A stretch of 64,000 nucleotides of DNA from Harmothoe impar (lineage: Eukaryota > Annelida > Polychaeta > Phyllodocida > Polynoidae). Each line of letters begins with the position of its first letter. Position 1 is the first letter of the stretch. Below the pieces are notes generated by a model, which worked only from the letters and a program-made list of their open reading frames with translations, made no database searches and was not told the DNA's origin. The position numbers and the translations under genes are program-made. Below are positions 9,757 through 30,753 of this stretch, piece by piece. The stretch lies in assembly GCA_947462335.1 (NCBI GenBank), contig OX381709.1:34738186-34802185 (forward strand). The letters run 5' to 3'.

Positions 9757-10745
9757 GACCCGGGTTGGGGGTCGCCCGTGGTCGCCCAGATTTGGGTCGC
9801 CCATGGTCGCCCGGGTTGGGGTCGCCCGGGTTGGGGTCGCCCGGGTTGGGGTCGCCCGGGTTGGGGTCGCCCGGGTTGGGGTCGCCCGGGTTGGGGTCGC
9901 CCGGGTTGGGGTCGCCCGGGTTGGGGTCGCCCGGGTTGGGGTCGCCCGGGTTGGGGTCGCCCGGGTTGGGGTCGCCCGGGTTGGGGTCGCCCGGGTTGGG
10001 GTCGCCCGGGTTGGGGTCGCCCGGGTTGGGGTCGCCCGGGTTGGGGTCGCCCGGGTTGGGGTCGCCCGGGTTGGGGTCGCCCGGGTTGGGGTCGCCCGGG
10101 TTGGGGTCGCCCGGGTTGGGGTCGCCCGGGTTGGGGTCGCCCGGGTTGGGGTCGCCCGGGTTGGGGTCGCCCGGGTTGGGGTCGCCCGGGTTGGGGTCGC
10201 CCGGGTTGGGGTCGCCCGGGTTGGGGTCGCCCGGGTTGGGGTCGCCCGGGTTGGGGTCGCCCGGGTTGGGGTCGCCCGGGTTGGGGTCGCCCGGGTTGGG
10301 GTCGCCCGGGTTGGGGTCGCCCGGGTTGGGGTCGCCCGGGTTGGGGTCGCCCGGGTTGGGGTCGCCCGGGTTGGGGTCGCCCGGGTTGGGGTCGCCCGGG
10401 TTGGGGTCGCCCGGGTTGGGGTCGCCCGGGTTGGGGTCGCCCGGGTTGGGGTCGCCCGGGTTGGGGTCGCCCGGGTTGGGGTCGCCCAGGTTGGGGTCGC
10501 CCGGGTTGGGGTCGCCCGGGTTGGGGTCGCCCGGGTTGGGGTCGCCCGGGTTGGGGTCGCCCGGGTTGGGGTCGCCCGGGTTGGGATCGGCCGGGTTGGG
10601 ATCGGCCGGGTTGGGGTCGCCCGGGTTGGGGTCGGCCGTGTGGGGGTCGGCCGTGTGGGGGGTCGCCAGTGGTCGCCCGGGTTGGGGTCGCCCATGTTCG
10701 CCGGGGTTGGGGTCGCCCGTGGTCGCCCTGGTTGGGGTCGCCTGC
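9757..10745. repeat. 15-bp GC-rich minisatellite
   Basis: About 52 nearly identical units of CCGGGTTGGGGTCGC run from 9811 to about 10590, with one C-to-A variant near 10488. Degenerate units follow to about 10745 and precede from about 9757. Because 15 is a multiple of three and the unit lacks stops, four overlapping frames are open for more than 330 codons; these are artefacts, not genes. Each unit carries GGG and GGGG runs that could form G-quadruplexes on the plus strand. It lies about 230 bp upstream of the ORF1 start of element A. Confidence 0.97.
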
Positions 10746-14312: not shown

Positions 14313-14397
14313 AGGGAGGAGTGTCAAGGGCCCATCATTGACTCGCCCTACTGGTGGCGCCCTCTCATGAGGTGTGGAGGAATTAGACACAAAGAGA

Positions 14398-14409
14398 GCC
14401 CTCTAGTGG
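14398..14409 (-). promoter_or_regulatory. CTCF-like core in 5' UTR of element B
   Basis: The reverse strand reads CCACTAGAGGGC, fitting the CTCF core CCASYAGRKGGC. Repeated at +1700 and +3485. Motif match only. Confidence 0.35.
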
Positions 14410-14412
14410 AAA

Positions 14413-14485
14413 CAAGAATTGCGGTTGTTGCCGCGTAAAAAAATGCCTCAGGGATTTTTATACGCGGCAACAACCGCAATTCTTG
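14413..14485 (+). ncRNA. Strong 5' UTR hairpin (25-bp perfect stem)
   Basis: Perfect 25-nt inverted arms at 14413-14437 and 14461-14485 (left arm starts CAAGAATTGCGG, right arm ends CCGCAATTCTTG) enclose a 23-nt loop with A/T runs. The same structure is at 16113-16185 and 17898-17970. In RNA this would be an exceptionally stable stem 0.5 kb upstream of ORF1. Role unknown: ribozyme-independent structural element, siRNA source or remnant of a foldback insertion are all possible. Confidence 0.6.
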
Positions 14486-14601
14486 CATCCGAAGAAACAT
14501 AATGTCTACATGGTTGGTATGTTTGAAGGGAACCCATTCAAAACACCAATGGCATTTCCTATGAATTCCTTGGGTCCATGTTAGGGGGTAAGGAAATGTG
14601 T

Positions 14602-14645
14602 GTTGCTAGGCAGATAAACAATAACAATAGATGTTGCTAGGCAAC
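14602..14645. promoter_or_regulatory. RFX/EF-C-like sites in 5' UTR of element B
   Basis: GTTGCTAGGCA occurs twice, and the second (14633-14645, GTTGCTAGGCAAC) is a full palindrome matching the EF-C/RFX1 consensus GTTGCNNGGCAAC. Repeated at 16333-16345 and 18118-18130, and in a diverged copy at 26208-26220. Candidate promoter element; binding not shown. Confidence 0.45.
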
Positions 14646-14997
14646 CAGCTGGATTAACAACAAACTAATAGAACGAACGTTATGGATAGTGGCTAAAGAC
14701 GCGAGGAGAGTCAGCTCCCGGTTTGAGGCAGATTATTAGAAGAACTAAGCAAGATAACTGCAAACAGCAAGCGAGAGAATTGTGCGTAAAGGTGAGAGGA
14801 AGAATTTGGTGTAACTTTTGTTTAAAAAAAGTGATTATTAAGAAAGTTATTGTAACTTTTATGAATTGCCGTTGAGGTGAGCGATAATACAGAGCGCCAC
14901 CATTGACTACAGCATTACGTCACAAATTCAAATCAATAACGGTCACTAGAGACTGAAGAGACTTGAGAGCGCGCACGTCTAGTACACAACAATCAAG

Positions 14998-16041
14998 ATG
15001 GAGAAGAAACTTGATCAATTAATCAAGGATAATGTGGATATAAAGGAGAAAATGGGTAGACTAGTAGATCTTACTGAGCGGGTTAGTGCTGCAGAAGAAA
15101 AGCTAGGCAAAGTAAAAGAGCTGACGGAGGGAATTGAAAAATCCCAACAACGACATGACGGGTTACTGGAGGACATAGAGACAGCTGAAGTTCAGAGGAA
15201 AGTGAACTTTGATAATCTTGTTGAAAGAATCAAGATAGTTGAAGATCATAAAAATGGTGTCAGCAAAGATGAGATCAGAGGAATGGTCAAGGAGTGCATC
15301 ACACAAGTAGTCAAAGAAGAATTAAAGGGAGTGAAAGCAGTGGTGAAAAATGAGGTGAAGGGTGTTGACAAGAAGAGAAACCTAGTCATGCTCAAGATGC
15401 CGGAGATAAAAAATGAAAATCTCAGAAATGATCTTACAGATGTCCTACTTACTTCAGGGAATAATTTCTATCATGATTTTGTTTCAATCACGAGGATAGG
15501 AAAATTTCGTGGTCTAGCTAGGCCAAGGAAAGTACTAATCACTTTCAGGAATGAAGAAAGGAGAGACTTAGCATACGCTGGAAGATTTCTTATGGGGAAC
15601 ATTGATGAGTGTAGAGGGTTTTTGCTGGTTGAAGATGAGACAGATGAAGAAAAGGAGGTTAGAGAAGTAGCACAAGGCCTAGTTGATTTGGGAAAAGATC
15701 TCAAGATGAAAATCAAGATCTCAGGAAAGAACATAATTCTGAACGGGGAGAAATATGACATGGCCAAAGATCTAGCAAGATTGCCACAATCTTTGACAGT
15801 GGAAAAAGCCTTTGTAAGGGAGGTAGAAAATGCTGTGATTTTTCAAAGTAAGCATGCCTACTTATCCAACCACTTTGAGAGAGAGATTGAATATGAAGGA
15901 AGGAAATTTGTGTCAAATGAACAAGCATTTTTCTACAAGAAATCACAAGTTTGTAACAAGCCGGAAGAAGGGAAGCAAATTCTACAATTGAAATGTGGAA
16001 AGAAGATTAAGGAGGGAGGAGTGTCAAGGGCCCATCATTGA
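14998..16041 (+). pseudogene. Truncated ORF1 (copy 1) of element B
   Basis: 347 codons, identical to the complete ORF1 at 18483 through residue ~338 (ending ...KCGKKI). The tandem junction then replaces the C terminus with KEGGVSRAHH and a stop. The coiled coil and RRM-like part are intact; the C-terminal half of NADAR, with the WGxG and GxN loops, is missing. If expressed, it could act as an inactive or dominant partner. Confidence 0.8.
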
Positions 16042-17797
16042 CTCGCCCTACTGGTGGCGCCCTCTCATGAGGTGTGGAGGAATTAGACACAAAGAGAGCC
16101 CTCTAGTGGAAACAAGAATTGCGGTTGTTGCCGCGTAAAAAAATGCCTCAGGGATTTTTATACGCGGCAACAACCGCAATTCTTGCATCCGAAGAAACAT
16201 AATGTCTACATGGTTGGTATGTTTGAAGGGAACCCATTCAAAACACCAATGGCATTTCCTATGAATTCCTTGGGTCCATGTTAGGGGGTAAGGAAATGTG
16301 TGTTGCTAGGCAGATAAACAATAACAATAGATGTTGCTAGGCAACCAGCTGGATTAACAACAAACTAATAGAACGAACGTTATGGATAGTGGCTAAAGAC
16401 GCGAGGAGAGTCAGCTCCCGGTTTGAGGCAGATTATTAGAAGAACTAAGCAAGATAACTGCAAACAGCAAGCGAGAGAATTGTGCGTAAAGGTGAGAGGA
16501 AGAATTTGGTGTAACTTTTGTTTAAAAAAAGTGATTATTAAGAAAGTTATTGTAACTTTTATGAATTGCCGTTGAGGTGAGCGATAATACAGAGCGCCAC
16601 CATTGACTACAGCATTACGTCACAAATTCAAATCAATAACGGTCACTAGAGACTGAAGAGACTTGAGAGCGCGCACGTCTAGTACACAACAATCAAGATG
16701 GAGAAGAAACTTGATCAATTAATCAAGGATAATGTGGATATAAAGGAGAAAATGGGTAGACTAGTAGATCTTACTGAGCGGGTTAGTGCTGCAGAAGAAA
16801 AGCTAGGCAAAGTAAAAGAGCTGACGGAGGGAATTGAAAAATCCCAACAACGACATGACGGGTTACTGGAGGACATAGAGACAGCTGAAGTTCAGAGGAA
16901 AGTGAACTTTGATAATCTTGTTGAAAGAATCAAGATAGTTGAAGATCATAAAAATGGTGTCAGCAAAGATGAGATCAGAGGAATGGTCAAGGAGTGCATC
17001 ACACAAGTAGTCAAAGAAGAATTAAAGGGAGTGAAAGCAGTGGTGAAAAATGAGGTGAAGGGTGTTGACAAGAAGAGAAACCTAGTCATGCTCAAGATGC
17101 CGGAGATAAAAAATGAAAATCTCAGAAATGATCTTACAGATGTCCTACTTACTTCAGGGAATAATTTCTATCATGATTTTGTTTCAATCACGAGGATAGG
17201 AAAATCTCAGAAATGATCTTACAGATGTCCTACTTACTTCAGGGAATAATTTCTATCATGATTTTGTTTCAATCACGAGGATAGGAAAATTTCGTGGTCT
17301 AGCTAGGCCAAGGAAAGTACTAATCACTTTCAGGAATGAAGAAAGGAGAGACTTAGCATACGCTGGAAGATTTCTTATGGGGAACATTGATGAGTGTAGA
17401 GGGTTTTTGCTGGTTGAAGATGAGACAGATGAAGAAAAGGAGGTTAGAGAAGTAGCACAAGGCCTAGTTGATTTGGGAAAAGATCTCAAGATGAAAATCA
17501 AGATCTCAGGAAAGAACATAATTCTGAACGGGGAGAAATATGACATGGCCAAAGATCTAGCAAGATTGCCACAATCTTTGACAGTGGAAAAAGCCTTTGT
17601 AAGGGAGGTAGAAAATGCTGTGATTTTTCAAAGTAAGCATGCCTACTTATCCAACCACTTTGAGAGAGAGATTGAATATGAAGGAAGGAAATTTGTGTCA
17701 AATGAACAAGCATTTTTCTACAAGAAATCACAAGTTTGTAACAAGCCGGAAGAAGGGAAGCAAATTCTACAATTGAAATGTGGAAAGAAGATTAAGG
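16013..17797 (+). repeat. Tandem 5' copy 2 of element B (1785 bp)
   Basis: Apparently identical to copy 1 apart from an 85-bp internal tandem duplication (second copy starts near 17203), which accounts for the 1785-bp offset. It ends at the same breakpoint in the NADAR domain as copy 1, so the duplication endpoints are shared. Confidence 0.95.
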
Positions 17798-17826
17798 AGG
17801 GAGGAGTGTCAAGGGCCCATCATTGA
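16698..17826 (+). pseudogene. Truncated, frameshifted ORF1 (copy 2) of element B
   Basis: Same start as copy 1, but an 85-bp duplication shifts the frame: the first ORF (16698-17216) stops at ...TRIGKSQK, and the rest continues as 17377-17826. It has the same truncated C terminus (KEGGVSRAHH). A non-functional duplicate. Confidence 0.85.
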
Positions 17827-18482
17827 CTCGCCCTACTGGTGGCGCCCTCTCATGAGGTGTGGAGGAATTAGACACAAAGAGAGCCCTCTAGTGGAAACAA
17901 GAATTGCGGTTGTTGCCGCGTAAAAAAATGCCTCAGGGATTTTTATACGCGGCAACAACCGCAATTCTTGCATCCGAAGAAACATAATGTCTACATGGTT
18001 GGTATGTTTGAAGGGAACCCATTCAAAACACCAATGGCATTTCCTATGAATTCCTTGGGTCCATGTTAGGGGGTAAGGAAATGTGTGTTGCTAGGCAGAT
18101 AAACAATAACAATAGATGTTGCTAGGCAACCAGCTGGATTAACAACAAACTAATAGAACGAACGTTATGGATAGTGGCTAAAGACGCGAGGAGAGTCAGC
18201 TCCCGGTTTGAGGCAGATTATTAGAAGAACTAAGCAAGATAACTGCAAACAGCAAGCGAGAGAATTGTGCGTAAAGGTGAGAGGAAGAATTTGGTGTAAC
18301 TTTTGTTTAAAAAAAGTGATTATTAAGAAAGTTATTGTAACTTTTATGAATTGCCGTTGAGGTGAGCGATAATACAGAGCGCCACCATTGACTACAGCAT
18401 TACGTCACAAATTCAAATCAATAACGGTCACTAGAGACTGAAGAGACTTGAGAGCGCGCACGTCTAGTACACAACAATCAAG

Positions 18483-19763
18483 ATGGAGAAGAAACTTGAT
18501 CAATTAATCAAGGATAATGTGGATATAAAGGAGAAAATGGGTAGACTAGTAGATCTTACTGAGCGGGTTAGTGCTGCAGAAGAAAAGCTAGGCAAAGTAA
18601 AAGAGCTGACGGAGGGAATTGAAAAATCCCAACAACGACATGACGGGTTACTGGAGGACATAGAGACAGCTGAAGTTCAGAGGAAAGTGAACTTTGATAA
18701 TCTTGTTGAAAGAATCAAGATAGTTGAAGATCATAAAAATGGTGTCAGCAAAGATGAGATCAGAGGAATGGTCAAGGAGTGCATCACACAAGTAGTCAAA
18801 GAAGAATTAAAGGGAGTGAAAGCAGTGGTGAAAAATGAGGTGAAGGGTGTTGACAAGAAGAGAAACCTAGTCATGCTCAAGATGCCGGAGATAAAAAATG
18901 AAAATCTCAGAAATGATCTTACAGATGTCCTACTTACTTCAGGGAATAATTTCTATCATGATTTTGTTTCAATCACGAGGATAGGAAAATTTCGTGGTCT
19001 AGCTAGGCCAAGGAAAGTACTAATCACTTTCAGGAATGAAGAAAGGAGAGACTTAGCATACGCTGGAAGATTTCTTATGGGGAACATTGATGAGTGTAGA
19101 GGGTTTTTGCTGGTTGAAGATGAGACAGATGAAGAAAAGGAGGTTAGAGAAGTAGCACAAGGCCTAGTTGATTTGGGAAAAGATCTCAAGATGAAAATCA
19201 AGATCTCAGGAAAGAACATAATTCTGAACGGGGAGAAATATGACATGGCCAAAGATCTAGCAAGATTGCCACAATCTTTGACAGTGGAAAAAGCCTTTGT
19301 AAGGGAGGTAGAAAATGCTGTGATTTTTCAAAGTAAGCATGCCTACTTATCCAACCACTTTGAGAGAGAGATTGAATATGAAGGAAGGAAATTTGTGTCA
19401 AATGAACAAGCATTTTTCTACAAGAAATCACAAGTTTGTAACAAGCCGGAAGAAGGGAAGCAAATTCTACAATTGAAATGTGGAAAGAAGATTAAAGCTG
19501 TAGGTGACTCAATCGCTGAAAATGATCTCTGGATCGCTACGAAAGTTGATGTCTTGAAAGCCATTAATCTGGTGAAGTATACAACACATGAAGATCTCAA
19601 GATGAAGCTAGTAAGCACAGTAAAAACCCTGGAGGAAGCAACAGGGGATAGAGTATGGGGCAAAGGACACTACATATTCACGAAGGAAGCAAAATCCAGC
19701 AGCGGGAAAGGTCAAAACAAGTTTGGCGTCTTGCTAATGGATATCTGGCGAGACCTACGATAA
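18483..19763 (+). CDS. ORF1 protein of element B: coiled coil + RRM-like + NADAR domain
   Basis: Intact 426-aa ORF. Residues 1-130 form a Lys/Glu-rich coiled coil. Residues about 130-255 (KKRNLVMLKMPEIKNENLRN, RPRKVLITFRNEERRDLAYA, KIKISGKNIILNGEKYDM) resemble the RRM and C-terminal domain of L1-type ORF1 RNA chaperones. Residues about 285-425 are a complete NADAR domain: AYLSNHFE, VSNEQAFFYKKS, VLKAINLVKYTTHEDLKMKL, EATGDRVWGKGHY and GQNKFGVLLMDIW. Conserved NADAR positions (the Glu before Gln-Ala, Trp-Gly-x-Gly, Gly-x-Asn, final Leu-Leu-Met) are all kept, so it is plausibly active as an ADP-ribose/N-glycosidase. It is followed 0.6 kb later by the SGNH-like ORF. Confidence 0.88.
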   Translation: MEKKLDQLIKDNVDIKEKMGRLVDLTERVSAAEEKLGKVKELTEGIEKSQQRHDGLLEDIETAEVQRKVNFDNLVERIKIVEDHKNGVSKDEIRGMVKECITQVVKEELKGVKAVVKNEVKGVDKKRNLVMLKMPEIKNENLRNDLTDVLLTSGNNFYHDFVSITRIGKFRGLARPRKVLITFRNEERRDLAYAGRFLMGNIDECRGFLLVEDETDEEKEVREVAQGLVDLGKDLKMKIKISGKNIILNGEKYDMAKDLARLPQSLTVEKAFVREVENAVIFQSKHAYLSNHFEREIEYEGRKFVSNEQAFFYKKSQVCNKPEEGKQILQLKCGKKIKAVGDSIAENDLWIATKVDVLKAINLVKYTTHEDLKMKLVSTVKTLEEATGDRVWGKGHYIFTKEAKSSSGKGQNKFGVLLMDIWRDLR

Positions 19764-20396
19764 GTAAAACAGTGATTCTCAAGAATTGACTCGATAATAA
19801 ATTCTAAATTTTTCGCCACAGTTGCACATTGTAATAATCTAGTACTTGGGTAGATCAATATTTATCATAAAAAATTATAACGTATATTGGAGGGGTTTTT
19901 TAAGTAACGCCGGGTCGCTTCGCCGAAAACCGGAAGTCATGGAAGCCATTTTGTAAACAATAAGGCCGCAGTTACTAAGCAACGCTAGCAACCGGGTAAC
20001 AACAACTTTTTAACAATCAAGCTGTAATAAAACAGTGAGATGTGAACATATAGAGCCACAAAATAAATAAATGAGATTAGTCATGGATGTTTATGAGATT
20101 AAAGAAGGGAATTAGTAATTTAAAAATATAAAATAGCGGACGCTTATTCACCGCGGAGCGCCCGGAAGTGAATGCTGCAAGATGGCGTTTGTAAACAAGT
20201 TGAGTTAGATTGACGCACAGTCAAAGCAAAAGTAGTTTATAGATGGATGTTTAGGTAGAGATTATGGTGTAATATAACGCTGTTTTCTTTGCTGAAGTCT
20301 ACTACATAGATAGGAGCCTGTTTGTGAATGCAAGTGGCCTTTTTAAGTGACTAATTGACAATTCTAAAGGAGCGTTCGTGTCACACCAGTGTCAAT
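19764..20396 (+). promoter_or_regulatory. Spacer between ORF1 and SGNH-like ORF with ETS, YY1 and RFX-like motifs
   Basis: Contains ETS-type CCGGAAGT at 19930-19937 and 20162-20169, a YY1-like CAAGATGGCG at 20178-20187 and an RFX-like GTTACTAAGCAAC at 19971-19983. Two similar blocks (CCGGAAGT..., then TTTGTAAACAA) recur 230 bp apart. This combination is typical of TATA-less promoters and suggests separate transcription of the downstream ORFs. Inference from motifs only. Confidence 0.4.
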
Positions 20397-21089
20397 ATGG
20401 CTACGGTAGATGTCCAAATAGTGTCAGACGGAAGAATTGAAGAGGATGTGTTTGACAAATTGCAAGATATAGACAGGATTACGTCTTCAATCACTGGTCA
20501 TGTATATGAACAAGAGGGACTGCTTAGTGTTGGTGACGAGATGATTCAACTACTTCAAGATAGACCCACTGATTATATAATAATGTCTGCTGGCATAAAC
20601 GACTTAATTGTAAGAGATATCAATAGTGAAGCTCCAATGGAAAGGAGCCTACATTTAGTATCACAGGATCGACATGAAATGGGAACTAATATGTGGGGAC
20701 AGATAGATACTTTAGAGGAGAGACTGGAGGAGTTAAATTTTCCATGTCGTGTATCTTTGTGCCCACTAACAACTATGAATTTACAAGTCTACGCGCCGGC
20801 CTGCAACTTTACAAATGATGATCAATATAATTTAGATGTAGCCATTGTGGTTATTAATGAGCGGGTTGTGAATTTTAATAAGAACTTGCATATGCCTACG
20901 CCATGGACTGGGAATGAAGTCCAACATTACAGGAAAAAGAAGATGAAAATCCATTATGAGCTACTGGAAAATGGATACATGCCTAATGGTCAGCTTAAAA
21001 GTTGGTGGGCTAGAGACATCAACAAGGCAATAATCAAGTATGCTGCAAGTTTCAATGGAGCTCAAGTCGGTGGTGATGATCAGGTGTAA
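20397..21089 (+). CDS. SGNH-like ORF of element B
   Basis: 230 aa from the ATG at 20397 (MATVDVQIVSDGRIEEDVF); an in-frame upstream extension begins with TTG and is not used. VQIVSDGRI aligns with SGNH block I and DYIIMSAGINDLIV with block III (Gly-x-Asn-Asp kept). The C-terminal SWWARDINKAIIKYA resembles the last helix, but the block V Asp-x-x-His is not evident and the block I Ser is absent. Esterase-like domains occur in ORF1 of CR1 LINEs. Here the domain is a separate ORF between NADAR-ORF1 and EN-RT, as in copy A. Family assignment is tentative. Confidence 0.55.
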   Translation: MATVDVQIVSDGRIEEDVFDKLQDIDRITSSITGHVYEQEGLLSVGDEMIQLLQDRPTDYIIMSAGINDLIVRDINSEAPMERSLHLVSQDRHEMGTNMWGQIDTLEERLEELNFPCRVSLCPLTTMNLQVYAPACNFTNDDQYNLDVAIVVINERVVNFNKNLHMPTPWTGNEVQHYRKKKMKIHYELLENGYMPNGQLKSWWARDINKAIIKYAASFNGAQVGGDDQV

Positions 21090-21867
21090 TAACACATCTG
21101 TTTCATTTGAATATGTGACTAGGTGATGTCAATGTAATACAACATTGATAAATCTACACCTGCATCTACAAATGTAATCTACAAATGCAAGCTACAATAA
21201 AAACAGCAACTGGGTCGTTTTCAAGTGGATGGAAGAATATAAGTGACTGCGCCAGTAATAAAGCTGTAAAATAATGGCTGCATTGCGCATATGAAGTACA
21301 AAACAGTCTACCGGTACTGCCGGTATATTACCGGTACTTTAAACTGAGATATCAAAACTCAATGAACTATTAGGGGAATTACAAATATCATATTTTATAT
21401 TTTAGTATTTAAATAATTGTACATATATATATAATTCAATGAATTTTAGTTTTAAGCCTGTACATGCTGCTTGATCTGATTAATTTATCTACTTAATTGA
21501 GTTATTAAATCATAGATGACCTGTAATAATACGGTTAATTTATGCGTATCAATAACTATATCAACTTTTTGCAGTGGTTGGTATGGCCTATAGTCTAAGT
21601 GAATTATAAGTGAATTTTGAGAGATTTTTACCTGTGTATTAATTTCACAAGAATAAGTAAATAAATTGTGAAAATTAATTTGCCTAAACTGGGTAGTTGT
21701 AGCTCATATCTATAATGTTCCTATGAGTAGTACAACTAACAACGAGTTATCATTCATCCCTCCCTCCCCCCTCATCTCATCATTTACATGTCAAACTTAT
21801 GTATTGATTTTTTATCATAAAAATGATAATGTGTTTAGGTTAGAAAATACAGCGAAAATTTGCAAAA
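21090..21867 (+). other. Spacer between SGNH-like ORF and EN-RT, element B
   Basis: 778 bp of AT-rich sequence without coding frames. Noted: several ACCGGTA motifs (21311-21340), a pyrimidine run TCCCTCCCTCCCCCC at about 21758 and CAATAAAAACAG at 21195, which could serve as a poly(A) signal for an upstream transcript. Confidence 0.4.
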
Positions 21868-22302
21868 ATGACGAGTAAAGTAAAAGGGCTCAAGTCAGTA
21901 TTTTGGAATGCGCAGAGTCTAAATTCAACCAAGTCTGTCACAGTAAGTGAGTTTTTGGAAAGTCTGAATGCAAATGTTATAAATATTTCTGAAACTTGGT
22001 TAAAGCCGGACATGGGAGATAGTATATTTAGTGTTGATGGGTTTGTTACCCATAGATTAGACAGAGAATATCTGAATGATAAAGGTGATATCAATAAAGC
22101 TGGAGGTTTAGCTACACTAGTGCAGAATAGTCTGCGACATGAAGTTCTAGAGGATCCTGATCTACATGTCATGAACGAGAACATTGAAATTCTAGCTTTA
22201 AAGGTTTGTCTGCCTTTTACTAGGAAAATATATATTTTAAATGTGTATAGGCCACCTTCTGGAAACAAAGATAAATTTTTCTTACACATAATCAAGGCCT
22301 TA
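21868..22302 (+). pseudogene. APE endonuclease N-terminal half, element B (split by MITE)
   Basis: Starts at an ATG (MTSKVKGLKSVFWNAQSLNS). Contains the Asn of WNAQS, INISETWLKPD (catalytic Glu), VTHRLDRE, KAGGLATLVQNS and ILNVYRPPSGN, the conserved APE endonuclease order. The frame runs into a MITE at 22303, which replaces the rest with a short out-of-family tail and a stop at 22341. The domain resumes in frame after the insertion at 22619. Confidence 0.9.
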
Positions 22303-22618
22303 GGGAGTGCTCATTTTTTAACAACAGGGGGGGGGCGGTGAGATTTCGCGCGGAGCGCGCGAAATTTTTTCACCCCCCCCGCTAGAGGGGTCGAAATTTT
22401 TTACCCCCCCCCCCCGGCAGGCCGAAAATCGCGCGCGTTCGCGCCCCTTTGTAGCATAGTAACGCGCGGGCTTTTTCCCTCAAAACAGGTTGAATTTTTT
22501 TCACCCCCCCCAAGAGGGGTCTAAATTTTTTACCCCCCCCCCGGTCAAGGGGTCCAAATTTTTTACCCCCCCCCCAAATCCACCACCCCCCCCCTGTTGT
22601 TAAAAAATGAGCACTCCC
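22303..22618. mobile_element. GC-tract MITE (Harbinger-like), copy 1, inside element B endonuclease
   Basis: 316 bp flanked by TTA target duplications (22300-22302 and 22619-22621). TIRs begin GGGAGTGCTCATTTTTTAAC and end GAGCACTCCC, followed inward by poly-G/poly-C tracts. The interior has CGCGCGTTCGCGCCCCTTTG and GTAGCATAGTAACGCGCGGG. The 3-bp TWA duplication fits PIF/Harbinger. The right TIR supplies the ATG that opens the downstream EN-RT frame. Confidence 0.9.
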
Positions 22619-25141
22619 TTAGCCAAAATAAAAAAATTAGAGGGTAAAAAGAATGTGGATTACATTTTAGGTGGAGATATGAATATTGATTACAGCAAAA
22701 GTTCAAAGGCCAAGGAACGATTTGAATTAATTGAAGCTGCCTTTGGAATGACACAGTACATTCAAACGCCTACACGGCCATTATATTCTAGTGCAGTGAT
22801 AGACCTAATTTTTACAAATATGAATGATGTGGCAGATGCTAACCTTATCCCTGCTGAAATGATGAGTGCAGATGTAATTGATAAAAGCATTAGTGACCAT
22901 GTGCCAGTGTACATAGTCAGGAAAAGAATTAAAAAAGGGGGAGGAGTATGTGCTGATTTCATGGGAAGAACCTACAGAAGGTATAATGCAGAGGCCTTAA
23001 TGAGACACATGAAAGGGCTCAATTGGGAAATATTTTTTACTTGTGCAGACCCAAATGAAGCATGGAAAATATTTTATGATTATTTGATTGAATATTTAGA
23101 TGAAAATTGTCCCATAAAGAGAAATACTTTCAAAAGAGAGAAACCACAATGGTTAACTCCAGACTTAGTAGAGTTAATGAGAGATAGGGATTTGGCCCTA
23201 AAGAGAGCTAGAAAAACACATAAACTAGAAGACAAGAATAGGGCGAAACTTCTCAAAAATAGGTCAAATGCCAAAAATAAGAGAGCACATGACACTTACA
23301 TTAAGAATCAATTATTAAAGCATAAAAATGACCCAAAAAAGTTTTGGGATCAATTGAGAAATCTATTACCAGGTAATAAGCGATCTGCTAGTTTCAATCT
23401 TATTGATGAGTTAGGTGAGGAAATCCCTTGTGATGGAGCAGCGGATCATATAAATGAGTTTTTTGCAAACATAGGCAAAAATCTAGCTTCTGAAATTCAA
23501 GAGTTTAATGGGAATTTAAACATACAAATTGAACATGTAGAGAATGAATTTATCTTCAATAATATAGTGCTGGATGATTTAGAAAAGGAAATCAAAGAGA
23601 TAGATATAACAAAATCTTCAGGTTTTGATAATTTATCAGCTAGAGTATTAAAAGAGTGCCTCCTGGGAATGAGTAACCATTTTTTGCATATCATAAATTT
23701 GTCAATAACAACTGGAATTTTCCCAGAAAATTGGAAAATGGCTAAAATAACGCCTATACCAAAGGTTACTAATCCAAGCAATGTGAGTGATTTAAGACCT
23801 ATTTCATTGCTACCTATCACAGGGAAAATATTAGAAAAACTAGTGCACAAACAAACAGCAGCCTTTTTAGAAGGGAATTCCCTACTAACTGATAAGCAAA
23901 ATGGCTTCAGAGCTAAAAGAGGAACTCAAGACACAGTTATCAAATTGACAAAAGATGTATTTGAATCTTTAAATAAAGGTGAATACATTGGTGCTGTATA
24001 TATAGATTATCGTAAGGCATTCGATACAATTAACCATGAAAAATTAATACATAAAATGCCACAATTTGGTTTCTCTCAGACTGTAATCAATTGGTTTACT
24101 AATTATTTAAAAGGCAGATCGCAAAAAACTATTGCAAATGGAGTGAATTCAAATTGGTTGAAAACCTCATATGGAGTACCTCAAGGGTCCATTTTAGGGC
24201 CACTATTATTTATAATGTATGTTAATGATTTGTCAAAACTGAATATGAATGGTAAGGTGTTAAAATATGCAGATGACACGGTTTTATATATGACTGGTAG
24301 ATCTGTGGTTCAAATTATCGAAAAATTGCAAGAAGATCTCAATATTTTAGTGAATTACTGTGATGTTAATCAGCTGACAATTAATGCCTCAAAAACTAAA
24401 TTTATGCTATACACATATGAAGATGAAGTAGGTACACTGCCCTTAATAGTTAAAGGGAAGGAATTGGAAAGGGTAGAAAAGTATAAATATCTAGGTATAA
24501 TACTTGATCAGAAACTAACCTTTAAGTATGAATTGAATAAAACAGTCAGCAGATTAAATCACAAAATATGGATTCTATGTCATTTCAGAGCCTGTTTAGA
24601 CATCAGTACTGCATTAACAATATTGAAAACTATGATTCTTCCATATATAGATAATAGCAATGTTTTCTTCTCAGCGTTAAGTTTCATTGACCAAAAGAAA
24701 ATTCAAATACTCCAAAATAATGCACTGAGAGTCTGTTACCAAATATATGATCCACAGGAGGTATCAGTCAAAAAACTACATTCTGACTCAGGAGTACTTC
24801 CAATAGATCTAAGGAGAAGGTACTTGCAAGGCGTGCTTGCATATAGGCTAATACAAATAAAAGGTGTTGAATTAGTGAATAATAGAAGAACCAGAGCTGC
24901 AGATGGACCTTTGGTAAAAATGTATTTATCTTATACTGAAAGGGTGAGAAAATCCCCTCCAAATGCTACTTTCCATGAATGGAATTTAATCCCATCCTTT
25001 GCTAGGAATGCTGAAAGCAAGAAAGTGTTCAAAGTAAAATTAAGAGAATTAATTAAAAAATTCTTTGATAAAAAATGGAGATATGACTTGCAGTTCACAA
25101 ATGATGCTGTTGAAGACATTTATGCTGCGCTGCAGCAATAG
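22607..25141 (+). CDS. EN C-terminal part + reverse transcriptase, element B
   Basis: 844 codons from an ATG located in the MITE terminus (MSTPLAKIKK). Residues 20-105 finish the endonuclease: LGGDMNIDYSK, AVIDLIFTN and ISDHVPVYIV. The RT follows: SDLRPISLLPITGKILEKLV near residue 400, IDYRKAFDTINHEKL near 465, YGVPQGSILGPLLFIMYVND near 523, YADDT at 554-558 and KYKYLGIILDQKL in the thumb region. The C-terminal 200 residues are the usual LINE tail without RNase H. The RT itself appears intact; only the endonuclease is interrupted. CR1/L2-like clade by domain content. Confidence 0.92.
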   Translation: MSTPLAKIKKLEGKKNVDYILGGDMNIDYSKSSKAKERFELIEAAFGMTQYIQTPTRPLYSSAVIDLIFTNMNDVADANLIPAEMMSADVIDKSISDHVPVYIVRKRIKKGGGVCADFMGRTYRRYNAEALMRHMKGLNWEIFFTCADPNEAWKIFYDYLIEYLDENCPIKRNTFKREKPQWLTPDLVELMRDRDLALKRARKTHKLEDKNRAKLLKNRSNAKNKRAHDTYIKNQLLKHKNDPKKFWDQLRNLLPGNKRSASFNLIDELGEEIPCDGAADHINEFFANIGKNLASEIQEFNGNLNIQIEHVENEFIFNNIVLDDLEKEIKEIDITKSSGFDNLSARVLKECLLGMSNHFLHIINLSITTGIFPENWKMAKITPIPKVTNPSNVSDLRPISLLPITGKILEKLVHKQTAAFLEGNSLLTDKQNGFRAKRGTQDTVIKLTKDVFESLNKGEYIGAVYIDYRKAFDTINHEKLIHKMPQFGFSQTVINWFTNYLKGRSQKTIANGVNSNWLKTSYGVPQGSILGPLLFIMYVNDLSKLNMNGKVLKYADDTVLYMTGRSVVQIIEKLQEDLNILVNYCDVNQLTINASKTKFMLYTYEDEVGTLPLIVKGKELERVEKYKYLGIILDQKLTFKYELNKTVSRLNHKIWILCHFRACLDISTALTILKTMILPYIDNSNVFFSALSFIDQKKIQILQNNALRVCYQIYDPQEVSVKKLHSDSGVLPIDLRRRYLQGVLAYRLIQIKGVELVNNRRTRAADGPLVKMYLSYTERVRKSPPNATFHEWNLIPSFARNAESKKVFKVKLRELIKKFFDKKWRYDLQFTNDAVEDIYAALQQ

Positions 25142-26097
25142 TTAATTTGTATTTGCTCAAGTAAAATAAATAGATATAGGTAACGGTACCTGTGGCAGTA
25201 TAAGTGTAAGTTAAGTTAAAAATAAATTGTAATAAAACAATTTGTTTTATCAAATTACCATTGTGAGGCTTAGTTGTAAAATAACAACTATTTCTAATAT
25301 TTTTCTCTAAACATTTGTTAAGGGTCACAAATATATATTATAATAGGTAAGTCATACAAGAATGAAAGAGTATCTTGTGTCATTAAAAATCCTTGGAGTA
25401 TTTTGTAATATCACATTTGCTCTATTGGTGGTTCTTGTTTAAATAATGTAATTGTCATATAACAGTTATATAGAAAATGTGAAAGCATACGAAGGTTTGA
25501 ATATCACTCCCATGTCAGTTTATATATTATAATAGGTAGGTCTTTCAAGAATGAAAGAGTATCTTGTGTCATTAAAAATCCTTGGAGTATTTTGTAATAT
25601 CACATTTGCTCTATTGGTGGTTCTTGTTTAAATAATGTAATTGTCATATAACAGTTATATAGAAAATGTGAAAACATACGAAGGCTTGAATATCACTCCC
25701 ATGTCAGTTTGCTAACTAAAGGTATATCCATGTAATCTAAAGGATTCCATATCGGATAATAAGTAAAAGGTGCTCTCTTTTATTTTATTAGCATTGAAAA
25801 TTGATGTAAGTATTATATAACAATTGTTAGTTTAATGAAATTTTGTCATCACCTCATCGTTCCCCTGGTCCCAATCCCCAAACTTGTTATCATCCCAAAG
25901 AATTTTTTAATTCTTGGTTCATTAAGCTAAAAAATGACATTGTGAGAAAATGGAAAAGTGTTTATATAGAGGTCATTTAAATGTGGACAATACATGTCAT
26001 TTTTCGTCCGGCTGAGTGTATAATTGATACCTGCATTCATTTGTAGACTGAGCATTCAGTATAATAAACAGTTAAATTGAAAAAATTGAAAAATTGA
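25142..26097 (+). other. 3' region of element B with 189-bp tandem duplication
   Basis: AT-rich, non-coding. The block from about 25333 to 25521 is repeated at 25522-25710 with few changes (landmark AAGAATGAAAGAGTATC at 25358 and 25547). The region ends in AAATTGAAAAAATTGAAAAA, a simple repeat compatible with a LINE 3' tail; the exact end is uncertain. Confidence 0.6.
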
Positions 26098-26240
26098 ATA
26101 GAACCATTAAATTTCTTGGATCCATATTAGGGGGGTAGGTTTGATTATAATCAACTTCAGGACCATGGGAATGTGCGTTGCTAGGCAGATAAACAATTAG
26201 AATAGCCGTTGCTAGGCAACCAGCTGTATAAGCAACAATA
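26098..26240 (+). repeat. Diverged fragment of element B 5' UTR
   Basis: TTTCTTGGATCCATATTAGG and the GTTGCTAGGCAGATAAACAA / GTTGCTAGGCAACCAGCTG phrases match 14565-14665 with substitutions and a 30-bp extra stretch. It sits at the 3' end of element B and against the satellite array, so element B 5' sequence and this satellite were once adjacent or share an ancestor. Confidence 0.7.
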
Positions 26241-28430
26241 GGGAATAGAAAGGTCAGAAGTTGATTTTGTCTTTTCAATGAGAGTTTCCGATAACTATTT
26301 TTACCAAAAAATATAAAATAGTCGATTTTCATGCCCTCTGAAAAAAATTGAAGACTTAAACTATGAATTTTGGCATATATTTAGTCACCCTCGCCTAGCC
26401 TAGTGCTTTCCATTAGTAAAAATGGTATTATGATGAGACTAGCAGAAGTATGCCCAAAAAGTCAGAATGTGATTGCTACCTGGAGGGCCGGTGGCCGACA
26501 CACTATCGCTACTCTGTTAGATTTCAATTAAACTAAAAACGCTCCCATTTCCTCAATTCTCAAGATATCAAAGATCTAAAGACAGATTCTGAAAGCCTAT
26601 AACAAGTATGCAAAGGGTTGATAGGGACTAGAAAGGTCAGAAGTTGATTTTGTCTTTTTTATGAGAGTTTCCGATGACTATTTTTACCCAAAAATATAAA
26701 ATAGTCTATTTTCATGCCCTCTGAAAAAATTGATGACTTAAATTATGAATTTTGGCATATATTTAGTCACCCTCGCCTAGCCTAGTGCTTTCCATCAATA
26801 AAAACGGTATTATGATGAGACTAGTGGAAGTATGCCCAAAAACTCACAATGTGATTGCCACCTGTGGGGTCGGTGCCTGATGGCCTATTGCTACTCTGCT
26901 GAATTCATACCAAACTAAAAACGCTCCCATTCCCTCAATTCGCAAGATATCAAAGATTTAAAGACAGATTCTGAAAGCTCATAACTAGTATGCAAAGGAT
27001 TGATAGGGACTAGAAAGGTCAGAAGTTGATGTGGTCTTTTTCATGAGAGTTTCCTAAAACTATTTTTACCAAAAATAAAAAAAAGCCTATTTTCATGCTC
27101 TCCAAAAAAAATTGAAGACTTAAACTATGAATTTTGGCATATATTTAGTCACTTTCGCCTAGCCTAGTGCTTTCCATCAATAAAAACGGTATTATGATGA
27201 GACTAGCAGAAGTATGCCCAAAAAGTCAGAATGTGATTGCTACCTGGAGGGTCGGTGGCCGACACCCTATCGCTACTCTGTTAAATTTCAATTAAACTAA
27301 AAACGCTCCGATTTCCCCAATTCTCAAGATATCAAAGATCTAAAGACAGATTCCGAAAGCCCATAACAAGTATGAAAAGGGTTGATAGGGAATAGAAAGG
27401 TCAGAAGTTGATTTTGTCTTTTCAATGAGAGTTTCCGATAACTATTTTTACCAAAAAATATAAAATAGTCGATTTTCATGCCCTCTGAAAAAAATTGAAG
27501 ACTTAAACTATGAATTTTGGCATATATTTAGTCACCCTCGCCTAGCCTAGTGCTTTCCATTAGTAAAAATGGTATTATGATGAGACTAGCAGAAGTATGC
27601 CCAAAAAGTCAGAATGTGATTGCTACCTGGAGGGCCGGTGGCCGACACACTATCGCTACTCTGTTAGATTTCAATTAAACTAAAAACGCTCCCATTTCCT
27701 CAATTCTCAAGATATCAAAGATCTAAAGACAGATTCTGAAAGCCTATAACAAGTATGCAAAGGGTTGATAGGGACTAGAAAGGTCAGAAGTTGATTTTGT
27801 CTTTTTTATGAGAGTTTCCGATGACTATTTTTACCCAAAAATATAAAATAGTCTATTTTCATGCCCTCTGAAAAAATTGATGACTTAAATTATGAATTTT
27901 GGCATATATTTAGTCACCCTCGCCTAGCCTAGTGCTTTCCATCAATAAAAACGGTATTATGATGAGACTAGTGGAAGTATGCCCAAAAACTCACAATGTG
28001 ATTGCCACCTGTGGGGTCGGTGCCTGATGGCCTATTGCTACTCTGCTGAATTCATACCAAACTAAAAACGCTCCCATTCCCTCAATTCGCAAGATATCAA
28101 AGATTTAAAGACAGATTCTGAAAGCTCATAACTAGTATGCAAAGGATTGATAGGGACTAGAAAGGTCAGAAGTTGATGTGGTCTTTTTCATGAGTGTTTC
28201 CGATAACTATTTTTACCCAAAAATATAAAATAGTCTATTTTCATGCCCTCTGAAAAAATTGAAGACTTAAATTATGAATTTTGGCATATATTTAGTCACC
28301 CTCGCCTAGCCTTGTGCTTTCCATCAATAAAAACGGTATTATGATGAGACTAGTAGAAGTATGGCCAAAAACTCACAATGTGATTGCTACTTGTGGGGCC
28401 GGTGGCAATGCCCTATCGCTAGTACCATTT
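26241..28430. repeat. 382-bp satellite with three-unit higher-order repeat
   Basis: Six units, measured by the landmark TATGAATTTTGGCATATATT at 26362, 26744, 27126, 27509, 27891 and 28273. Units 1/4, 2/5 and 3/6 are nearly identical to each other while neighbours differ more, giving a higher-order period of 1147 bp repeated twice (26241 and 27388). The array ends near 28430 where the last unit breaks into poly-C. No reading frame. Confidence 0.95.
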
Positions 28431-29858
28431 TTTGCCACAGGTGGCGCCCTATACCCCCCCCCCCCCGCCCCCCCCCCCCCTCCGCCACACCCGCGGCGAT
28501 GAGCCTAGACTACACAGTATAGCGGGAGTCTCCTCCAGTCTGCTGTACACTTCATGCCGCATCTATGGATGATCGAATCTATGAAATGAATGACAGCATC
28601 TATGAGGTGAGGGAGAAAACCGCTAACAGGGCACGTCCCCTACTCTTTTCGAAGGATAGCAAGTGTTCTTTTATTTGCCTGGTCCTAGCTACCTGGGCTA
28701 GTACCATAGTAGGCAGGGCCAGACAAACCAAGGCCTTTGATATCTCAGACGTGGTTCACTGAGGAGGGATCCCATGCCAGACCACCAGCAAGAAGGCCCG
28801 GGCCCGCGCATATGGGCAGCGGTTGCCAAACAGCTTACGTGACTGATCACAGCAGTAAGGCACGAGACCCCTCAAGTTTTGTCGCCTTTCACGAATTCGG
28901 TATGCCCATTGGTATTATGGAAGGCTCCCGATGAAGTTATTCTACTCCTTCATGCCCCCATCATGAAGGTCCCCACTAACACAGGGGGAAGACCTGGGGC
29001 AATAATTTAAGCGACCTGGCGACTTTTGCACAAAATTGATTATAGGATAAAGGGTCTAAAAAAACGACCTTGCGACCTGAGGGGGGGACCCCTCTGTACC
29101 CCCATGATTTAAGTCATTTCCAGTTGATGGTTTAAATGCTCAATATCCCTTTTAAATAACAGTAACAGATGCACTTAGTGTACATTAATATGACATATAA
29201 GGCCGTTTTATTCTGATAACTTGGATTACGGATCCGCCGATGGAAATTTTGGCATTTTGTAAAAAAAAAAAAGAAAAAAAGTGACTGGTTATATTCCACT
29301 AAGTCTACATGCTGACTGGCAGACACCCAGAATTAGGCTTTCAAAATTGGGAATATTTCACAATTTACCTTCATTATTTCTCAATATACCCACATTTAAT
29401 GGCCAAAACAAGACTTTTTGCATGCTTTTTTTTTTTTTTTCCTCCCGCCCCCCAAAATATATGCTCTGAGTGCCCGTAATCCAAGTTATCAAAAAAAGGT
29501 GGCCTAACATACATGTCTGGCCCGTCCTTTCCAGTAGGGCCAGAGGGAACTCTCTACGTTCCCACGGGGAAAAAGTGCGGGGCAAAATGCCCCACAGAAA
29601 TTACAGCAACTCACCCCGATTTTCCTCCTTTCAAATTCCCTATTTCATAAAATTGATGTGTTATACTAATGGCTGATGTTATAAAATATTGACTGTAATA
29701 TTGTTATATATTGACAAATGACAGTTAGTTCAGGGTGGGTGTTTTTAAAAAGTGATAGTTTCTGTGACGAGAACGCCCAGGGAGAACGTTGTTTGCCCTC
29801 TACCAGAATCCCGCCATCGAGCGTACTGAACACGTCACAGTCGTTTCCATGGTTATTA
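28431..29858. other. Intronic region with poly-C tract and decayed repeat pieces
   Basis: A poly-C tract lies at 28454-28481. 28560-28760 has GATGATCGAATCTATGA and other phrases like the I-clade LINE 3' UTR at 41520, so it may be a diverged copy. 28985-29105 (GCGACCTGGCGAC...) resembles 14085-14137 in inverse. The remainder, including A and T runs at 29270 and 29430, shows nothing recognised. Confidence 0.4.
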
Positions 29859-30184
29859 GGGAGTGCTCATTTTTTAACAACAGGGGGGGGGGGGGTGGTG
29901 GATTTGGGGGGGGATAAAAAATTTGGACCCCTTGACCGGGGGGGGTAAAAAATTCAGACCCCTCTTGGGGGGGGGGGGCAAAAAAATTCAACCTGTTTTG
30001 AGGGGAAAAGCCCGCGCGTTACTATGCTACAAAGGGGCGCGAACGCGCGCGATTTTCGGCCTGCCGGGGGGGGGGGGGGGTAAAAAATTTCGACCCCTCT
30101 AGAGGGGGGGGTGAAAAAAATTCACGCGCTCTGCGCGAAATCTCACCGCCCCCCCCCCCCTGTTGTTAAAAAATGAGCACTCCC
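29859..30184. mobile_element. GC-tract MITE, copy 2
   Basis: 326 bp with TTA duplications at 29856-29858 and 30185-30187. Same termini and interior as copy 1 but inserted in reverse. Confidence 0.9.
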
Positions 30185-30753
30185 TTAAGCGCATCCCTCC
30201 CTCCTATACTAAAGATTTCCACAACATGGCGTGACGTTTGGGCATCCTTCTGATGATTCAGATTATTTCAGACTTGCTGCTCCTTTAATATACAAAGTAG
30301 CTCCTTAATTCCAAAAGATTCTGAGATAGATAAGTGTAATTGATAATCGTGAGTCGTTTAGATGATGTAAGTTTACTCGTTAATTGTTAACTGGCAGGAT
30401 ATGAGAAATCCCCGTACCGACGGGCCGACTTTGGGCAGTCCCAAGCACGATGAATGACGTGACTGGGACTGCGGTCCCTATGCTGCCTACTACTCGATCA
30501 AACATGGACACATCGATATTTTTTCTGTGTTTAATCGCCTCTATATCGCCTCAAAATGACTATATGCTTCTGCGGCCAGGAATACCATGGCAACAGGTCT
30601 AGATGTCCGATTGGCACTTCCGCCCAGACGAAAACAATGCGGATCAGCCATCATCAGGTTAGTTTTTCGCGTTTCCTGGCTGAAAGAAAGCAAATTAAGA
30701 CTTTTAACTTGTCGCAATCAAAAGAGCGGCCTAACATTGGCTGGGGTGCAACT
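30185..30753. other. Intronic sequence, nothing recognised
   Basis: No gene or repeat identified. A half X-box (ACCATGGCAAC) occurs near 30584. Confidence 0.35.

Follow-up and report, generated by a model that had tools for sequence, protein, structure and literature searches.

The window, a 64,000-nucleotide stretch of the genome of the annelid Harmothoe impar (contig OX381709.1), contained a non-LTR retrotransposon (LINE), here termed element A, in which an ORF1 with a C-terminal NADAR domain was followed by an SGNH-like ORF and by an APE-type EN together with an RT (Table 1). As a first-pass annotation of this DNA had reported, ORF1, the SGNH-like ORF, and EN-RT all lay on one strand, with EN-RT (21868-25141, plus strand) downstream of ORF1. 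An insertion of ∼0.3 kb (∼22299-22622) splits the EN and deprives this copy of autonomy; open EN-RT frames of 985-986 aa were present in the relatives L182 and L183. The 3'UTR included a 189-bp internal duplication (25332-25710), and its tail (25888-26091) had at least 43 matches in the host genome among the matches listed and was also found behind other A-family elements. A search for a target-site duplication of element A revealed no 6-14-base word common to the compared flanks (40 and 130 bases). Positions 14313-17797 held two additional tandem copies of the 5'UTR with a truncated ORF1. In tandem unit 1, which was identical to unit 3 at 1689 of the first 1690 bases, ORF1 ended early (after ∼aa 338) and the NADAR was cut; the frame of unit 2 was broken by an 85-bp internal duplication.

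Table 1. Features of elements A and B in the window. EN-RT HMM, model built from EN-RT homologues.
Feature	Position	Strand	Basis
A: extra tandem unit 1 (5'UTR + ORF1)	14313-16012	+	Direct repeats
A: extra tandem unit 2 (5'UTR + truncated ORF1)	16013-17797	+	Direct repeats
A: 5'UTR of full unit	17798-18482	+	Repeat register with units 1 and 2
A: ORF1, 426 aa, open	18483-19763	+	Coiled coil (predicted), middle part, C-terminal NADAR
A: NADAR domain, aa 285-426	19335-19760	+	Pfam E = 1.1e-20
A: SGNH-like ORF, 244 aa	20355-21089	+	Pfam GDSL E = 0.06, below cut-off
A: EN, N-terminal piece	21868-22341	+	EN-RT HMM positions 5-148, E = 1.1e-40; match reaches 22323
A: GC-rich insertion with inverted ends, interrupts EN	22299-22622	.	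Repeat families D9 and D16, inverted repeats
A: remaining EN + RT, 844-aa open frame	22607-25141	+	RVT_1 E = 1.3e-37; HMM positions 146-951
A: 3'UTR	25142-26097	+	Recurring tail, internal duplication
B: RT, cut by window start	3-956	-	EN-RT HMM E = 1.6e-84
B: EN, two frames	940-1742	-	EN-RT HMM E = 4.5e-27 and 3.8e-16
B: SGNH-like ORF	4186-5139	-	Pfam GDSL E = 0.086, below cut-off
B: NADAR C-terminal part, other frame	4886-5569	-	Profile 127-163, E = 0.093, below cut-off
B: NADAR, N-terminal two thirds	5499-6056	-	PF08719 E = 1.1e-10, profile 11-112
B: ORF upstream of NADAR	5926-7695	-	Open frame

The earlier proposal that the intact ORF1 ends in a full NADAR domain was borne out by both the Pfam profile and Foldseek. 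PF08719 matched with 74.9 bits (cut-off 35.1) over profile positions 9-163 of 163, and the NADAR family profile matched PDB entry 8bau with E = 1.2e-15. The AF2 model had ten-residue confidence means of 95-98 over aa 291-380 of the NADAR and of 76, 48, 42, and 84 over aa 381-420. The best PDB match of the ORF1 model in Foldseek was the NADAR 8bau (E = 1e-5, probability 1.00), and the suggested comparison with YbiA likewise gave a match (2b3w, E = 1.1e-4, probability 1.00). Alignment to 8bau, using the residue roles described in PMC11543638, identified E308, K315, W350, E385, D389, and W392 as the counterparts in order of E43, K50, W89, E125, D130, and W133 of the P. nicotianae NADAR (in the 8bau chain E385 is paired with E127, counted as E125 in the numbering of PMC11543638). 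All three catalytic positions (E43, K50, and E125) were kept, and two ADP-ribose contacts were substituted (R79 to D and D86 to N). The residue at the E125 position is Glu, not Asp or His, which on sequence grounds places this domain in the YbiA subfamily.

The part of ORF1 upstream of the NADAR was modeled by AF2 as a long helix (aa 2-83, ten-residue means of 74-90), a predicted coiled coil. The RRM-like part noted in the first pass did not emerge from our analysis: neither the single protein nor its 9-member family yielded an RRM or transposase-22 match, no Pfam or PDB sequence match to the RRM or CTD of L1-type ORF1 was obtained, AF2 confidence was low in this region, and Foldseek related the ORF1 model to L1 ORF1p with E = 1.0 and a probability of 0.14. 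ORF1 relatives in the host genome, at 83, 83, 83 (from aa 7), 76, and 71% over the protein length, matched element A from the N-terminus through the NADAR; the 71% relative contains a stop.

The SGNH-like ORF was upheld in its position, whereas its SGNH identity was not. A homologous ORF followed the NADAR in 9/9 of the closest loci and lay between NADAR and EN-RT in all five of those whose stretch reaches EN-RT. The GDSL score of the element A ORF was 14.3 bits against a cut-off of 32.9; the profile was likewise sub-threshold in element B, L197, and L202, and gave no match at E ≤ 0.1 in L187, L191, L199, or L204. Comparison of the element A ORF with PDB sequences provided no useful match. The catalytic Ser (GDS) and His (DGxH) were replaced by SDG/TDG and GYMP in element A and L202-L205, and both residues were also lacking in element B and L191; GDS and DGLHP were retained in L197 and L199. 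The AF2 model of this ORF was of low confidence (pLDDT of 48), and its Foldseek matches, none at E ≤ 0.001, were led by a phospholipase A1 (E = 0.19), with several esterases of the GDSL type within the top 20.

The two EN pieces of element A scored below the Pfam cut-offs (E = 0.0073 for the N-terminal piece with Exo_endo_phos and 0.00026 for the other), and the N-terminal piece was recognized by the model built from EN-RT homologues. The EN-RT had no match to L1 ORF2p at E ≤ 10 and was best matched by R2 (6.7e-19), and membership of element A in the L1/Tx1 group was rejected on this basis (Tx1 is a member of the L1 group). The positive control L192, with a NADAR upstream, has an EN-RT that matched human L1 ORF2p with E = 5.7e-96. 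By sequence comparison, then, the NADAR carriers include non-L1-type RTs (element A) and one L1-type RT.

A second LINE in the window, element B, is diverged and decayed and presents the same order of NADAR, SGNH-like ORF, and EN-RT on the minus strand. Its NADAR scored 42.4 bits, above the PF08719 cut-off, and the E125 motif was present in the sequence of the C-terminal part. The ORF upstream of it, which we read as coiled-coil-like, had weak Pfam matches only, and coiled-coil-type or helical families accounted for several of these. The SGNH-like ORFs of the two elements were 19% identical (pairwise BLASTP, E = 2e-6), with no useful PDB match for that of element B, and the RTs were 33% identical (tblastn, E = 1e-53).

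The first-pass annotation had asked whether other copies of ORF1 and EN-RT always occur separately; across the 1.51-Gb host genome the opposite was found. All 150 scored genome matches (of 3484 candidates) passed the PF08719 cut-off. EN-RT lay downstream on the same strand in 20/20 systematically sampled NADAR loci and in 0/60 of their other quadrants, against a background rate of 219/1548 (0.14). The same arrangement was observed in 4/4 of L202-L205 and 4/4 of L170-L173 (L170 and L182 being one locus). At loci beyond the systematic sample, EN-RT also occurred upstream on the same strand in L166 and L180 and antisense in L176 (upstream) and L202 (downstream). A repeat-rich genome might place NADAR fragments or a cellular NADAR gene beside LINEs by chance, and four matches (L166-L169, profile 1-162) do resemble cellular genes that have no same-strand EN-RT within 1.5 kb downstream, L166 having one upstream. 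Such chance neighborhood is contradicted by the 20/20 versus 0/60 distribution and by the order in element B, and the extension of the ORF1 matches through the NADAR also speaks against it; we regard it as extremely improbable. The evidence is strong that a LINE carries a full NADAR in its ORF1. This NADAR is part of the element, and it is found again in several deep lineages of LINEs in this genome.

In the copies examined, the active-site residues of the NADAR are retained and purifying selection acts on the domain. Among 32 complete LINE-type NADARs, picked by profile score and thus biased toward intact frames and kept residues, E43 was present in 31, K50 in 31 (R in the other), and E125 in all; 19 of the 32 were <80% identical (mean identity 0.36). 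These LINE NADARs bear the YbiA-type glutamate. NADAR dN/dS was 0.04-0.16 in the 13/41 LINE pairs with a finite ratio (27 others were saturated in dS and 1 was undefined) and 0.09-0.16 in the six of these 13 pairs with dS <0.25. Two close pairs had EN-RT values of 0.09 and 0.19, and ORF1 upstream of the NADAR gave 0.42-0.60 in three L172 pairs, where the L172 frame differs. NADAR and RT distances were correlated (Mantel r = 0.91, 24 loci, 0/2000 permutations), but r dropped to 0.18 when the 198 pairs of <50% RT identity were taken alone, so co-inheritance is established within lineages, not between them.

The NADAR may serve element A in cleaning or shielding the element's nucleic acid. ORF1p would multimerize via the predicted coiled coil and, by analogy since the RRM-like part was not confirmed, would coat the element RNA; the NADAR would then free the guanine bases of this RNA, or else those of nascent cDNA or target DNA, from ADP-ribose, and a host or invader ADP-ribosyltransferase would thereby be unable to block translation, reverse transcription, or integration. 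We give about an even chance to such stripping of ADP-ribose from guanines as a counter to transferases. That the NADAR protects element RNA or cDNA against ADP-ribosylation of nucleic acids is plausible because the active site is kept, the domain is under purifying selection, and NADARs undo the ADP-ribosylation of guanosine in DNA (PMC11543638, PMC11125620) and in RNA, on which they were the sole active family among those tested. Guanine ADP-ribosylating activity is present in six edible clams. Counting against protection, no DarT homologue was found in the host genome as a cognate transferase; the R79 and D86 substitutions of element A also count against the proposed role.

The NADAR might instead act on free or capped NAD or ADP-ribose species (ADP-ribose signals, NAD-capped RNA, or other N-glycosides) and blunt host signaling rather than clean nucleic acid. 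This reading draws on E. coli YbiA, which functions in riboflavin metabolism by cleaving reactive intermediates (PMC11543638), on the YbiA-type glutamate of the LINE NADARs, and on DNA-virus NADARs that co-occur with SLOG and Macro domains, interpreted as handling ADP-ribose derivatives (PMC9503650); PMC11543638 also describes the physiological targets of NADARs that have no DarT link as unknown. Fusion to a retroelement ORF1 in several lineages, however, would point to work close to nucleic acid, and NADARs assayed in the literature acted on RNA guanosine; we consider action on small species unlikely. A domain that is mainly an ADP-ribose reader, anchoring the RNP of ORF1p at ADP-ribosylated chromatin, at DNA breaks, or in granules while catalysis plays a lesser part, would agree with the binding of ADP-ribose by conserved residues in the crystal structure (PMC11543638) and with the changes at R79 and D86, by which affinity or turnover may differ in element A. 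A pure reader should not need E125, which was invariant in the LINE-type NADARs, although E125 contacts the ligand as well; substitution of the equivalent Asp in the E. coli C7 NADAR abolished efficient hydrolysis (PMC11543638). We judge the reader function quite improbable. Returning to guanine ADP-ribose hydrolysis, a whole set of LINEs in a single animal genome, ranging from L1-type to non-L1-type across several deep RT lineages, might encode within ORF1 an active hydrolase of guanine-linked ADP-ribose, often accompanied by an SGNH-like partner; guanine ADP-ribosylation would then be a real restriction pressure on animal retroelements, to which LINEs have a counter-defense. We hold this broader reading only tentatively, as somewhat doubtful.

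What NADARs do physiologically in animals and other eukaryotes has been called unclear (PMC11125620). A selected, active-site-intact NADAR in a LINE ORF1 provides a concrete genetic setting for animal NADARs, and it raises the testable question of whether RNA or DNA guanine ADP-ribosylation is used against retroelements. Selection can maintain an accessory enzyme domain in a LINE about as strongly as it maintains the EN-RT, and some database entries for animal NADARs may be transposon proteins. The first-pass suggestion that NADAR had not been described for LINEs was wrong in part, since one sentence in the main text of PMC12477816 (2025) mentions apparent YbiA-family NADAR domains in the ORF1 proteins of several Tx1 LINE families of Crassostrea gigas. 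With that prior mention, element A is a new variant and not the first NADAR LINE. It shares the YbiA-type NADAR in the ORF1 protein with the oyster elements, as L192 shares a NADAR upstream of an L1-type EN-RT, but its own EN-RT is not L1-like and an SGNH-like ORF lies between ORF1 and ORF2. Ectocarpus Gypsy LTR retrotransposons are also retroelements bearing a YbiA-family NADAR (PMC12477816). The L2/CR1 LINE ZfL2-1 resembles element A in having an ORF1 region with a coiled coil and an SGNH-type domain (PMC3905857), whereas element A has its SGNH-like part in an ORF of its own, which lacks the catalytic Ser and His. The L2/CR1 SGNH-type ORF1p, as presented in PMC4120745, is without a NADAR, and neither NADAR nor DUF1768 appears in the main text of that catalogue of ORF1 types I-V. 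DarT1-associated NADAR antitoxins and stand-alone YbiA have the same fold, Glu/Lys/Glu active site, and YbiA-type glutamate (PMC11543638, PMC11125620), yet do not reside in a retroelement. Metazoan plus-strand RNA viruses are, like element A, selfish RNA-based replicators with a NADAR, and their acquired domain has been interpreted as counter-defense against host ADP-ribosylation; the likeness is one of description, the carriers in PMC9503650 being viruses and element A an endogenous LINE.

The 426-residue ORF1 of element A, a plus-strand LINE, ends in a NADAR domain (residues 285–426) that covers almost the entire Pfam profile (E=1.1e-20), in agreement with the first-pass annotation of an intact ORF1 terminating in a full NADAR. 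When this ORF1 was compared with PDB sequences by phmmer, the P. nicotianae NADAR 8bau was matched at 5e-8, and a profile built from nine ORF1 relatives reached 8bau at 1.2e-15 and the E. coli NADAR protein YbiA at 4e-8. AlphaFold2 modeling gave ten-residue means of 95–98 across residues 291–380 and of 76, 48, 42, and 84 across residues 381–420; residues 2–83 formed a long helix of fair to good quality, and the middle part was poor. A likeness to YbiA was seen when the model was analyzed by Foldseek; at E≤0.001 the search yielded 8bau and YbiA alone, each with probability 1.00. The RRM-like part that had also been read into ORF1 was not confirmed: profile searches gave no RRM or transposase-22 match in any of the nine ORF1 family members, no RRM-like part was present among the PDB sequence matches of the nine-member profile, and L1 ORF1p was reached by Foldseek at E=1.0 at best. 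A protein database search based on shared five-residue words yielded no match for this ORF1 or its NADAR part. The order originally described, in which the NADAR-bearing ORF1 precedes an SGNH-like ORF and then EN-RT on one strand, was recovered.

Coordinates of LINE parts and other features in the window
Feature	Position	Strand	Remark
Element A ORF1	18483-19763	+	open frame, 426 aa
Element A SGNH-like ORF	20355-21089	+	
Element A EN-RT	21868-25141	+	EN interrupted
Element B coiled-coil-like ORF	7695-5926	-	
Element B NADAR	6056-5499	-	E=1.1e-10
Element B NADAR, C-terminal part	5569-4886	-	different frame, E=0.093
Element B SGNH-like	5139-4186	-	
Element B open frame between SGNH-like ORF and EN	4070-3276	-	
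Element B EN	1742-940	-	
Element B RT	956-3	-	truncated at window edge
Third LINE EN-RT	53887-56440	-	37% identical to A, apparently 5'-truncated
CEP19-like gene	59959-60447	+	PF14933 E=4.6e-50

In the copies examined, the NADAR of LINE ORF1 proteins is under purifying selection and has retained its active-site residues. The roles of E43, K50, and E125 were defined in the P. nicotianae NADAR in PMC11543638 (8bau chain numbers, counted from the alignment, are larger by two). Among 32 complete LINE-type NADARs (near-copies included and the broken copy of element B excluded), E43 was present in 31, K50 in 31 with Arg in the remaining one, and E125 in all 32; for four of these, in the numbered host-genome stretches L176, L177, L180, and L181, a downstream EN-RT was not in the stretch examined. 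Arg at the K50 position retained in vitro activity, according to the same paper. In the alignment to 8bau, the element A domain possesses W89, D130, and W133, with R79 replaced by D, D86 by N, and R93 by K. We calculated dN/dS by the Nei-Gojobori method from copies picked by profile score, which biases the set toward intact ones. For 41 LINE NADAR pairs, 27 were saturated in dS, one was undefined, and 13 gave dN/dS of 0.04–0.16; the six with dS <0.25 ranged from 0.09 to 0.16, and the remaining seven depend on dS >1. EN-RT values were 0.09 (L182-L183) and 0.19 (L185-L186), those for three host-like NADAR pairs were 0.26–0.47, and ORF1 5' of NADAR gave 0.42–0.60 in three pairs with L172, the frame of which differs there. 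The L182 and L172 NADARs exhibited zero silent changes, and such near-identical copies suggest recent activity.

The same order recurs elsewhere in the host genome (1.51 Gb), where PF08719 provided 3484 first-look candidates; 150 were scored, and all 150 exceeded the cut-off. The CEP19-like gene in the window is consistent with an animal host, or with some other ciliated eukaryote. Chance adjacency of NADAR and LINEs was rejected by a systematic sample (every fourth row from row 5; 20 loci, rows 5–81, of 37 planned) in which each locus was examined with 4.75 kb on each side. According to the EN-RT model, a profile of EN-RT homologues, EN-RT was located downstream on the same strand in 20/20 loci and in 0/60 of the other quadrants; as a background, 219 of 1548 position-strand cases in the window, elements A and B excluded, had an EN-RT match no more than 4.75 kb away. 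Outside this sample, the same-strand downstream arrangement was found in 8/8 of L170-L173 and L202-L205 (L170 repeats the L182 locus; L175/L202 and L179/L203 are each one locus). Downstream EN-RT was not seen in the short stretches L174-L181 and L167-L169. EN-RT was upstream on the same strand in L166 and L180 and upstream antisense in L176, and L202 had a second, antisense EN-RT between NADAR and EN-RT. Among the 150 scored matches, the four of L166-L169 (C19:3.415 Mb and C21:30.06-30.08 Mb), three of them clustered, look like cellular NADAR genes.

An SGNH-like ORF lies 3' of the NADAR ORF in all nine loci closest to element A (A itself, L175/L202, L176, L177, L179/L203, L180, L181, L204, and L205), divided over two frames in L176; the ORF1 sequences of these loci are 54–83% identical to A where aligned. 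In the five stretches reaching EN-RT (A and L202-L205), it is positioned between NADAR and EN-RT. The model of this ORF also matched L199, L191, and L197 (E=6e-6 to 2e-4), and an SGNH-like-looking stretch, noted by eye with no Pfam call, occurs inside the NADAR frame of L189. The next closest carriers, L182-L186, have NADAR to EN-RT gaps of 23–622 bp and no SGNH-like ORF. The position assigned to this ORF in the first-pass annotation stands, but its identity is less secure: Pfam matches were weak for A, B, L197, and L202 (E=0.046–0.086) and absent for L187, L191, L199, and L204, and A and L202-L205 carry substitutions in both catalytic motifs (Ser and His). The SGNH structure model was of too low quality for use. 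The SGNH label itself is tentative, being drawn from weak matches. L197 and L199, also NADAR carriers, retain both motifs. Judged by sequence, the clade of A and L202-L205 has a predicted NADAR active site that is retained and a predicted SGNH site that is lost.

The element A copy is not autonomous. Its EN is disrupted at 22299-22622, where a GC-rich sequence of ∼0.3 kb has inserted. This insertion belongs to a small family marked by inverted ends (AGGGAGTGCTCATTTTTTAACAACAGGGGG) and long runs of C/G, with additional copies at 29855-30187 and 58063-58393. Comparison of the flanks revealed no target-site duplication. The tail of the 3'UTR (25888-26091) recurs in the genome, with at least 43 matches listed from a search in which 40 of 278 candidates were scored. 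Three of these sit 3' of A-family ORF1s; at C1:81.85 and C4:47.94 Mb the tail follows the EN-RT of L202 and L203, and at C10:50.49 Mb the stretch examined did not extend to the EN-RT. Positions 14313-17797 comprise two further tandem units, 1700 bp and 1785 bp long, each joining the 5'UTR to an ORF1 cut after approximately residue 338, ∼99.9% identical to the full unit over the parts compared (about 1 base in 1700 different). The identical junction occurs twice in these units, and 85 bp are duplicated within copy 2. The extra units may stem from segmental duplication, from template jumping, or from an assembly effect. A 382-bp satellite (5.7 copies, 26238-28421) is directly preceded at its 5' side by an 88% match to the element A 5'UTR (26167-26238).

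The RT of element B, a decayed minus-strand LINE near the window start, shares only 33% identity with the A RT. In pairwise BLASTP run with composition correction off, the two NADARs aligned at 26% (E=4e-7) and the SGNH-like sequences at 19% (E=2e-6), and the N-terminal parts barely matched (E=0.009). That elements so divergent are identical in order counts against chance. A model scan of the window found no NADAR match near the third EN-RT. A 15-bp minisatellite occupies 9805-10693 (59.5 copies, 97% matches).

The NADAR carriers form several groups at RT identity <50%. An RT tree obtained by a quick method with 40 comparison proteins of undescribed ORF1 required at least seven carrier-label changes, four forced by starred branches; each change could represent either a gain or a loss, and the branches leading to L192 and L189 are very long. 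Human L1 ORF2p was matched by the EN-RT of L192 (E=5.7e-96) and the RT of L189 (5e-7), whereas the EN-RT of A had no such match at E≤10 and matched R2 at 6.7e-19; thus, NADAR is found upstream of both L1-type and non-L1-type EN-RTs. In the NADAR tree (62 rows, 27 from LINEs; 200 bootstrap trees), the LINE NADARs require at least two changes, and no bootstrap tree (0%) has a branch that sets them apart from all other rows; a single origin is compatible with the starred branches taken alone. With weak to moderate support, host-like genes cluster with some of the LINE NADARs and a single bacterial one, and L166-L169 make up their own clade. NADAR and RT distances were correlated (Mantel r=0.91, 24 loci, 0/2000 permutations), with r=0.18 for the 198 pairs at RT identity <50%. 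A search of viral contigs by RT gave one encoded relative and no locus.

In published work, NADARs cleared ADP-ribose from the guanosine of DNA (PMC11125620 and PMC11543638). In tests on RNA, reported elsewhere, they were the sole hydrolase family among those assayed that did so. ORF1p might deliver this activity to element RNA or cDNA. DarT, a candidate for the cognate transferase, had no match in the host genome; clams possess a guanine-N2 DNA ADP-ribosylating activity, as described in PMC11209040. Alternatively, the NADAR of LINE ORF1 may act on small ADP-ribose species, or it may read ADP-ribose for targeting.

The suggestion that NADAR was undescribed for LINEs is partly incorrect, since PMC12477816 states in a single sentence that several Tx1 LINE families of oyster have it in ORF1; that paper also reports NADAR in Ectocarpus Gypsy elements. 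Within open-licence PubMed Central main text, and among the papers listed there, this was the only one found for NADAR/DUF1768 in retrotransposons; the word NADAR is absent from the main texts of PMC4120745, PMC10294476, and PMC11203168. Within what was searched of that collection, the new points are the occurrence in non-L1-type carriers, an SGNH-like ORF in the middle position, the linkage across the genome, and the active-site and selection evidence. The oyster Tx1 LINEs, as described in that sentence, likewise have NADAR in ORF1, whereas element A combines it with a non-L1-type EN-RT and an SGNH-like middle ORF.
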